Source: Malachius bipustulatus (lineage: Eukaryota; Arthropoda; Insecta; Coleoptera; Melyridae). From it: DNA of 64,000 nucleotides. The position numbers and the translations under genes were made by a program. Location of the stretch: positions 8,866,001 through 8,930,000 of the forward strand of contig OU342631.1 in assembly GCA_910589415.1 (NCBI GenBank), written 5' to 3'. Of the stretch, positions 3,828 through 62,957 are shown piece after piece (the first letter of the stretch is position 1; every line of letters begins with the position of its first letter). The notes under the pieces are model-generated. The model saw only the letters and a program-made list of their open reading frames with translations. It was not told where the DNA came from and ran no database searches.

Positions 3828-4805
3828 TGTAACGGGTATTTTAATTTGAATAATTCGTGAGTGGATCAGCCCCCAAGTAACCCGTTACTAAGATATTTAA
3901 AAATAATTTTTATTTACAAATTAACTAAATATATACAATAAACCAATTAATATTATCAAGGGCGATGGCGGTTTTAGGTATCTGGCTCCTCTCACTGGAC
4001 GGACAGGCCGCAGTAATCCGAGGTCCCCGTTGGTTTCCGGAACTGATTGACTGCAGCGCTTGGTGATAAGGAGCGGGTCGCCACCAGTCGCCGCTGTACC
4101 TTCAGTAACCCTCGACGCCTCGCTGGTACGCGTCACCCGTTTTACTATACCAGAGCACGCGATTGATTCTTGCGGGCCTCGAATCTCGTCCGCCTGAAGA
4201 ACGGGTGGTAGCAGGCCCCGTGGGTTCTCAGTACAAGCCGCACAGACGAGACCTGCTAGTTAATCCAGGTCTCAATAAGACGTGAGCCTGACAAACTGAA
4301 AATAAAGGAAAATTAATTACTGGTTCTCCGCTCAGAGCTCATTACAACCTGGGCGAGAGTTATGGGACTAGGATAGGCCGACTCAATGCATCGGAATTTC
4401 CCCCTCGGTGCTCTCAGTACACGCACGTCGGTGGCCCGGTCCTGTCCTGTCTCTGGGGGCTCACTACACCCACCAGAGAAATGAAACGCGCGTTGGTCAA
4501 TACCCAGCTCGCGTCTCGTTGCCTGTTTACCCGGTAGGTGGACTCAGTACATCCACCGCGGGGTACTGGCTCCTGCAGGCTCAGTACACCTGGCAGGAGT
4601 TGAATGCTTGATGGTCAATGCCCAAACAAGCACTGTTCGTTCTTCGGATGTCCTCTGCTTTTATAGCTGGCGGTGGAGTGATAAGGCCGCTATCGCCGCC
4701 GCAAAAACTCTGTTTTCCCGCTTTGAACTGATTAAATGTAATAAACTGTCTCTAATAAGTAACTAATTAGAATAATTGTAAACGAAAGCCTCGCATTTTG
4801 TTACA
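3828..4805 (-). mobile_element. Solo LTR of a Gypsy-like retrotransposon (copy 1)
   Basis: Read on the minus strand, the element starts TGTAACAAAATGCGAGGC and ends AAAATACCCGTTACA. It has terminal TGTAAC/GTTACA inverted repeats and is flanked by the 4-bp direct repeat AGTT (3824-3827 and 4806-4809). In its own orientation it carries a TATA box (TATAAAAGCAGAG, near 4665-4653), a GC-rich leader with six hairpins, and an AATAAAA signal near the 3' end. It is homologous at both ends and in the middle to the LTR at 62095-62953. No primer-binding site, gag or pol flanks it, so it is a solo LTR. A 4-bp duplication and TG...CA ends fit the Gypsy superfamily. It lies directly against a LINE relic. Confidence 0.75.
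4208..4599 (-). other. Array of six hairpins with a conserved 9-nt loop (LTR copy 1)
   Basis: On the plus strand the loops lie at 4227-4235, 4338-4346, 4413-4421, 4460-4468, 4543-4551 and 4580-4588. They read CTCAGTACA, CTCATTACA, CTCAGTACA, CTCACTACA, CTCAGTACA and CTCAGTACA. Each is flanked by complementary arms of unrelated sequence, for example CTCTGGGGG/CCCACCAGAG, GGTGGA/TCCACC and CTCCTGCAGG/CCTGGCAGGAG. An outer TAGCAGG/CCTGCTA stem closes the first. On the transcribed strand the loop reads TGTACTGAG. Stems vary while pairing is kept, which suggests selection on structure. Confidence 0.7.
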
Positions 4806-62090: not shown

Positions 62091-62094
62091 TAAT

Positions 62095-62953
62095 TGTAAC
62101 GAATTCCAAGGCATTCGCAGTTAATTATTATTTATTTTAATTAATCGAGGGGTTTATCAGAAAGATACAGTTTTTACAGCAATGATTAGCGGGTTATCTC
62201 GCCGGCACCGGCTATATAAGCAGACCCAGAAGACAAGCAAGGCAGAAGACTCCGAGGAACTGACTCGAGAGTCTCTCTCCCTTCTAGTGTACTGAGCTAG
62301 AAGGCCCCGACCCCATACGACAGGAGGCATGTATTGAGTGCACTCCGTCGCGTCCATTCAGCTGGTGATGGTAGGTCAATGCATTGAGTTGAACCTTACT
62401 GTAACACGGCAACGGTAAGTTGATGAGAGTGAATTGAGCTCCCGTCGACAGCCAATCACAGCAGGGCAACAACCGGGACTGTAGTAAGGTCCCGGGCGGA
62501 CCCTTTCAGACGGCGCCAGGCCTGTATTGAGGGCCAGGCGTCATAAACGTCGGATCGCTATGTAAGGAGTTGTCGGTCCGACAGTCTCGTCACGATGCGT
62601 GTTCCGGCGGCAGCAGCGGCAGTAGATCCGACACACGATGTGCGGTGGTTGGAGAGCTACTGAAGCAGCAGGCAGCAGGCAGCAGGACCAGAGGTGGATC
62701 GACCGTGTAATCGACCAATTGACAGAGGTGCGTGCACCGAGGCGATATCTTTCGCCAATCGGAGGGGCTGCCGTAACGAGAGCCGGCCCACCCCGTCAGG
62801 ATTCGACAGTATTAATTTAACAGGGATCAAGATATGTAAATATAGTTATTGTAAATAAAGATTTTTATTATTATAATTGACTTGTCACGGGTAAAAGGGG
62901 GCAATTATCCATCCCTGGGGAATCAGCTCTACCCAACCGAAAATCCCGTTACA
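62095..62953 (+). mobile_element. Solo LTR of the same Gypsy-like family (copy 2)
   Basis: Starts TGTAACGAATTCCAAGGCAT and ends CCGAAAATCCCGTTACA, with 7-bp TGTAACG/CGTTACA inverted ends. TAAT flanks both sides (62091-62094 and 62954-62957). TATATAAG lies at 62213, the hairpin leader at 62280-62542, AATAAAG near 62859 and the conserved GTCACGGGTAAAAGGGGGC near 62885. Start, TATA context (GCTATATAAGCAGA), spacing to the first hairpin (~67 bp) and 3' end are homologous to the LTR at 3828-4805. The GC-rich stretch 62560-62810, open for 60 codons, is part of the LTR and not a supported gene. Confidence 0.8.
62280..62542 (+). other. Array of six hairpins with a conserved 9-nt loop (LTR copy 2)
   Basis: Loops lie at 62288-62296 TGTACTGAG, 62330-62338 TGTATTGAG, 62380-62388 TGCATTGAG and 62430-62438 TGAATTGAG. 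The last two are 62480-62488 TGTAGTAAG and 62523-62531 TGTATTGAG. Their stems are CCTTCTAG/CTAGAAGG, GGAGGCA/TGCACTCC, AGGTCAA/TTGAACCT, GATGAGAG/CTCCCGTC, CCGGGAC/GTCCCGG and GGCGCCAGGCC/GGCCAGGCGTC. All pair, some with one bulge or G-T pair. Stem sequences differ from each other and from copy 1. Confidence 0.75.
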
Positions 62954-62957
62954 TAAT

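Follow-up and report, generated by a model that had tools for sequence, protein, structure and literature searches.

To our knowledge, little is known of packaging signals and leader signals in animal Ty3/gypsy elements. Drosophila gypsy carries a Su(Hw) insulator array in its 5' UTR, domesticated Ty3/gypsy relatives such as Arc form capsids, and the packaging hairpin of MS2 has a bulge. MS2, STNV and HBV are described with multiple dispersed packaging signals that combine a loop motif with variable stems (PMC3662417, PMC4836477, PMC8677749), and the RNA of the LTR retrotransposon Ty1 with a structured 5' leader (PMC5454406).

We report here hairpin arrays in LTRs of Ty3/gypsy-like retrotransposons of the beetle Malachius bipustulatus. 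Two of them lie in the window, by which we mean the whole 64,000-nucleotide stretch analysed (C2:8866001-8930000 of the 544-Mb genome). Like retroviral psi, such an array places hairpins in a retroelement 5' leader, between promoter and gag; unlike psi, which has a few differing hairpins, it has about 6-10 copies of one heptaloop and lies inside the LTR, so that it is presumably present at the 3' end too, and Gag binding is a proposal here. With MS2 and STNV it has in common several hairpins that present one loop motif on varying stems, whereas the signals of MS2, STNV and HBV bind coat or core protein along the viral genome and ours are arrayed compactly in an LTR retrotransposon and have a candidate reader. 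By analogy, the array may work as repeated packaging signals do in small RNA viruses, or as psi does. It is known in kind, as an RNA element of an LTR-retrotransposon leader; what is new is the loop, G-N-A-N-U-G-A, in arrayed form. Rfam 15 gave no match at the gathering score in the window and none up to an E value of 1 in either LTR, and we found no description of such an array in the accessible text of the open-access PMC literature (including PMC8121366). The original prediction that no LTR element with such an array has been described is uncontradicted by these sources, within the text accessible.

The window contains two solo LTRs, LTR1 and LTR2 (Table 1), both with the TG...CA ends and 4-bp target duplications of Ty3/gypsy-type LTRs. 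They had been taken for one LTR family, which we could not uphold, since they aligned only in pieces of 11-57 bp; judged by sequence, LTR2 is a separate family, older than LTR1. With 40 of 1241 candidates scored, LTR1 had at least 43 genomic matches, many of them paired; for LTR2 the number was at least 48 (40 of 306 candidates scored), mostly at 85-91% identity. Eleven pairs of LTRs taken for both ends of one element were 99.3-100% identical (two pairs compared over just a part of the LTR), indicating young copies. The array sits between the TATA box and AATAAA and would presumably fall in R, hence at both ends of the RNA, with the transcription start placed from the TATA box and the borders of R from these signals. 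Besides the splice-site-like sequences listed in Table 1, copy L036 has a pyrimidine tract followed by CAG, resembling a 3' splice site, within its LTR (minus strand, past LTR position 481); this copy matches LTR1 at 95% until position 481 and has other sequence beyond.

Table 1. Positions of the LTRs, hairpins and other features (window coordinates unless a contig is given)
Feature	Position	Strand	Remarks
LTR1, solo LTR	62095-62953	+	ends TGTAAC...GTTACA; TSD TAAT at 62091-62094 and 62954-62957
LTR1 TATA box	62213-62219	+	by sequence reading
LTR1 hairpin 1	62280-62304	+	loop 9-mer from 62288; in global fold
LTR1 hairpin 2	62319-62349	+	9-mer from 62330; bulged A 3 bp below closing U.G; in global fold
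LTR1 hairpin 3	62373-62396	+	9-mer from 62380; bulged A; in global fold
LTR1 splice-donor-like hexamer GTAAGT	62415-62420	+	between hairpins 3 and 4; altered in a subfamily of about 92% identity
LTR1 hairpin 4	62419-62449	+	9-mer from 62430; A-C mismatch; in global fold
LTR1 hairpin 5	62473-62495	+	9-mer from 62480; loop GTAGTAA; in global fold
LTR1 hairpin 6	62512-62542	+	9-mer from 62523; A-A mismatch; in global fold
LTR1 hairpin 7, degenerate	62547-62584	+	loop degraded, near 62561
LTR1 AATAAA	62854-62859	+	
LTR2, solo LTR	3828-4805	-	ends TGTAAC...GTTACA; TSD AACT
LTR2 TATA box	4659-4665	-	
LTR2 hairpin 0	4603-4634	-	9-mer from 4622; loop GCATTGA, G-C closure; in global fold; missed in the original prediction
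LTR2 hairpin 1	4570-4599	-	9-mer from 4588; in global fold
LTR2 hairpin 2	4537-4557	-	9-mer from 4551; in global fold
LTR2 hairpin 3	4485-4515	-	9-mer from 4504; loop GTATTGA, G-C closure; in global fold
LTR2 hairpin 4	4450-4479	-	9-mer from 4468; in global fold
LTR2 hairpin 5	4408-4426	-	9-mer from 4421; outside global fold of window copy
LTR2 hairpin 6	4376-4396	-	9-mer from 4390; outside global fold of window copy
LTR2 hairpin 7	4326-4359	-	9-mer from 4346; decayed; outside global fold of window copy
LTR2 3' splice site-like tract	4285-4320	-	pyrimidine tract and CAG, within the LTR
LTR2 hairpin 8	4266-4284	-	9-mer from 4279; loop TTATTGA, C-G closure; outside global fold of window copy
LTR2 hairpin 9	4220-4243	-	9-mer from 4235; outside global fold of window copy
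LTR2 AATAAA	3909-3914	-	
Open frame, 607 aa	39079-40902	-	RVT_1 and RNase_H; looks like a non-LTR retrotransposon fragment
Open frame, 743 aa	50008-52239	+	C2H2-like zinc-finger repeats, by reading
Open frame, 500 aa	55932-57434	-	C2H2-like zinc-finger repeats, by reading
Open frame, 420 aa	59682-60944	-	C2H2-like zinc-finger repeats, by reading
Long-frame (1407-1410 aa) Gag copies	C3:53060373, C4:51855350, C1:83309753		

All six hairpins predicted on the transcribed strand of LTR1 were found, and the global fold of the leader (z -3.78 against shuffles) formed each of them. The degenerate hairpin 7 has the loop GTATTGA in copy L036 and GTATCGA in copy L069, and most other aligned rows of the family have GTATTGA or GTAGTGA in hairpin 5. 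In LTR2, where six hairpins had also been predicted, we found ten candidates. The global fold of its window copy had a z of -3.15 and formed just the first five of the ten; hairpins 5 to 9 have cleaner stems in several sister copies than in the decayed window copy. Hairpins in the transcribed leader, as in psi, are thus formed in the fold at six of six positions in LTR1 and five of ten in the window copy of LTR2, taking the start from the TATA box. The distance from TATA box to array, predicted to be the same in both LTRs, is equal (about 60 nt, to hairpin 1 of each) only when LTR2 hairpin 0 (4634-4603) is disregarded, which begins 25 nt past the LTR2 TATA box.

We read five arrays (LTR1, LTR2, L069, L070 and L071), which fall into three groups that could not be aligned with one another at an E value of 1e-3: LTR1 with L069 (70% identity over 209 bp), LTR2 with L071, and L070. 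The unit common to them was the heptaloop G-N-A-N-U-G-A on a base-paired closing position, which among the 28 exact sites of the five arrays was U.G in 20, C-G in 4, U-A in 2 and G-C in 2. What had been described as an invariant 9-nt loop is therefore constant as this heptaloop and not as a 9-mer; its outer T and G form the closing pair, for which C-G, G-C and U-A occur as well. Two hairpins of the window deviate by one letter in the loop (62480, 4279), and a bulge or mismatch interrupts several of the stems 3-5 bp below the loop. Counting both strands, the window has 17 exact TGNANTGAG sites, of which 12 lie within the two arrays.

The loop could also be read as codons, NUG-NAN-UGA being a minimal upstream ORF that would make each hairpin a start-stop translation element. 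This wording occurs at 22 of the 28 exact sites, with AUG at 9 of those, and AUG-NAN-UGA stands in two LTR1 hairpins (62329, 62379). We nevertheless consider such an element very unlikely, because the closing position is C or G at 6 of the 28 sites, where NUG is lost and the pair is kept; moreover, stops occur among the middle codons, whose fixed A this reading leaves unexplained. Loop-loop kissing that dimerises two genomic RNAs is slightly better placed, and still improbable. Short self-complementary stretches (GUAC, UGCA, AAUU) are present in some loops, and a kissing-loop model of Ty1 RNA dimerisation has been published (PMC5454406), the structured 5' leader being a feature that Ty1 and our elements share. 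Unlike in the Ty1 model, the composition of the loops argues against kissing here: both free positions inside the loop vary, and the fixed G, A, U, G and A are not complementary to one another, which is the opposite of what kissing requires.

The pairing of the flanks was restricted to the sense strand. At least three of the four inner pairs formed at 27 of the 28 sense GNANTGA sites of the five arrays, compared to none of three antisense sites; in the background, 54 of 305 sites did so. The background came from 160 kb, that is, from twenty 10-kb stretches (nine placed at round positions and eleven close to known copies) less the four that hold arrays; these four had clustered hits, all of the LTR1 family. 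As the five arrays were picked for holding the motif, its density in them is not independent evidence, whereas the pairing is. Within the window, sites with at most one mismatch had at least seven enclosing pairs in 14 of 14 cases in the arrays and in 36 of 140 elsewhere, with a mean dG of -13.7 and -1.9 kcal/mol, respectively.

We compared the arms among 15 hairpins, six from LTR1 and nine from LTR2 (hairpin 0 was left out), which were selected by loop and position, the pairing of most having been seen already in the original prediction. Arms were 28-29% identical between hairpins and loops 81%. The dG summed over own arms was -169.9 kcal/mol; with permuted arms it averaged -69.3 (sd 12.1), and none of 100,000 permutations was as low. 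At the inner 4 bp, 91.7% of cells were paired, and 55.4% after shuffling; covariation was 0.900 against 0.181 (sd 0.059), and double-change cells numbered 21 against 5.2. In three hairpins (62380, 4346, 4279), 4 of the 14 foreign arms paired as well as the own arm or better.

Searches of the whole genome pointed the same way. Two TGTAYTGAG loops 25-55 nt apart matched 343 times and the reversed pattern once; a looser three-loop pattern matched 2767 times and its reversed control not at all. By our count, the three-loop matches listed, which cover C1 up to 18.6 Mb, form 33 arrays; scaled by length, this would give roughly 1000 arrays genome-wide. Chance, or the decay of a tandem repeat, is hardly credible as the origin of the arrays in view of these reversed-pattern controls and of the permutation test, even though 54 of 305 background sites reach three inner pairs. 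We rejected the tandem repeat as a candidate since the arms are so little alike between hairpins and TRF found no repeat over either array, its sole row lying outside, at 62665-62686.

An array of sites acting in the DNA, as an insulator or for a transcription factor, is a further reading that we hold to be very improbable. Its attraction is that a short motif is repeated right after the LTR promoter, much as the Su(Hw) sites of gypsy form a row past the promoter. Such sites need no pairing flanks, and the Su(Hw) array consists of DNA sites without conserved hairpins, whereas here unrelated flanks pair at three or more of four positions at nearly all sense sites. An insulator motif would be independent of flank pairing; the sense flanks of our motif pair, with covarying bases, which speaks for a role as RNA. 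Selection on an RNA structure, as originally predicted, is well supported at the level of sequence by the arm-pairing tests, the restriction to the sense strand and the conservation of stems and of five loop positions.

Within families, the picture was more conserved. The stems had been described as unrelated both within and between copies; this is true when one hairpin is compared with another, or LTR1 with LTR2, but among copies of one family most stems are conserved. We aligned 24 rows from 38 LTR1-like stretches (those omitted being mostly mates or near-duplicates of rows kept), counting columns with at least 20 letters. In six hairpins of these rows, the G, the first A and the last A of the loop varied in none, the U in one and the second G in two, whereas the two N positions varied in five and three of the six. 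Variable columns made up 21 of 114 in stems and 45 of 105 in spacers. Compensatory change across copies gave a mixed result, being clear between hairpins, slight in the LTR1 family and no greater than in shuffles in the LTR2 family. In the 24 LTR1-family rows, 96.3% of cells were paired against 95.6% shuffled, covariation was 0.048 against 0.043, and double changes occurred at two pairs. In nine rows of the LTR2 family, neither pairing nor covariation differed from shuffles, as expected if solo LTRs decay once inserted. Double changes, e.g. GCG/CGC to GCA/TGC, can result when paired CpGs decay on each arm, which mimics compensation. Between LTR1 and its relative L069, by eye, the homologous hairpins 4 and 7 still pair with altered stems, and two other homologous hairpins of L069 are weak.

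Arrays lie beside elements that encode Gag. In the LTR1-family copy at C6:5541848-5545808, a single 675-aa frame holds Gag (PF03732, 2.3e-11) and a retropepsin (PF13975, 8.3e-9), and no pol was seen in its internal part or in the other LTR1-family copies read. Copy L040 of the same family has, by reading, a gag frame of 474 aa that lacks the protease stretch. In the derivatives L040, L038, L039 and L002/L003, gag or gag-pr is open, with a long Gag tail rich in Q, K, R, T and E. Directly after the LTR of L003 stands TGGCGCCCAACGT, a candidate primer binding site that may match tRNA-Lys. No tRNA was found by scans of the window and of the 10-kb stretches. Protein searches with an LTR1-family Gag gave no match. 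The Gag of this family resembles the insect Arc capsids dArc1 and dArc2, significantly for dArc2 alone (6taq, E 6.7e-5, against 0.086 for dArc1). Unlike these elements, Arc-like capsids have no hairpin array of the G-N-A-N-U-G-A kind that we found described, and loop reading is a proposal.

At least 149 places in the genome matched the Gag core, with 147 of 1407 candidates scored. Among the matches listed, a family of 63 copies at 61-63% identity to the Gag core had nearly equal scores; its frames are of 364 aa in 59 copies, 309 aa in one and 1407-1410 aa in three (Table 1). From these frame lengths, a stop seems to separate gag in this family from a putative pol that continues in its frame, an arrangement like that of readthrough-type retroviruses; the family was absent among the 150 integrase places scored, out of 4297 candidates. 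Five other Gag relatives (53-57% identity, known from Gag and integrase matches alone) have an Integrase_H2C2 match 2.2-2.8 kb downstream. On the listed part of C1, each of the six Gag matches had an array match no more than 1.2 kb away on its own strand, and the two that belong to the 63-copy family have an array to either side, at spacings of 5855 and 5871 bp. We had entertained the idea that a zinc knuckle is lacking throughout the clade, the hairpins being a forced substitute; this was dropped because a CCHC knuckle lies at C17:853653-853700, in the 364-aa Gag frame of one member of the 63-copy family. The search for CCHC scored 150 of 2940 candidates, so that absence elsewhere says little. 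A regular-expression scan gave no CCHC knuckle in the LTR1-family internal parts examined, and these elements keep the array.

In our proposal, the array serves as a cis-acting RNA element and is part of the leader that one clade of Ty3/gypsy-like LTR retrotransposons transcribes. Some 6-10 short hairpins would each show the heptaloop on an arbitrary stem, often bulged or mismatched 3-5 bp below the loop. As long as pairing holds, the sequence of a stem would be free, which would let arrays drift beyond alignment with the readable surface persisting. A fixed loop on a free stem, in several copies and on the sense strand only, fits the needs of a protein-binding platform, and the array is most likely, on this sequence pattern, a multivalent RNA platform of that kind, one protein probably docking on the loops of the whole array. 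Of the functions originally suggested, protein binding fits best and a packaging signal is a possibility; kissing dimerisation and translational start-stop fit poorly.

As reader of the loops, the element's own Gag is our leading guess, which we give an even chance of being right. Gag may gather and package its own RNA through the array, much as capsid proteins use packaging-signal hairpins that occur repeatedly. Since the array lies within the LTR and is inherited with the element, its association with Gag can be explained without Gag as the reader, and in the 63-copy family the CCHC knuckle found in one Gag means that packaging there could proceed without hairpins. The loops may instead be read by a host RNA-binding protein acting in nuclear export, stability, localisation or translation across the long leader, an alternative that we regard as possible and on the whole unlikely. 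The structural evidence (pairing, loop rule and conservation) is the same for a host protein as for Gag. Between its presumed start and the ATG of gag, the leader is estimated at about 0.9 kb, and with eight AUGs between that start and the end of LTR1, plain scanning to gag looks hard. Arrays adjoin gag-pr, gag-only and longer-frame elements, as would be expected of a reader that the element does not encode. Against a host protein, there is no match in Rfam, and no named host protein is tied to the loop.

Returning to Gag as the reader, a more specific version, which we advance tentatively and consider rather doubtful, is that the heptaloop code is a multivalent packaging address for an Arc-like capsid, knuckle-less derivatives keeping the array with the loop carrying the specificity. 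If this were true, gag-only and gag-pr derivatives without a zinc knuckle would retain the array because the loop, and not an NC domain, gives specificity. The defined loop in the compact array of young copies offers an immediate bait for its reader protein. A signal of this kind can persist in LTRs whose DNA has diverged past alignment, and ordinary repeat annotation would miss such signals.
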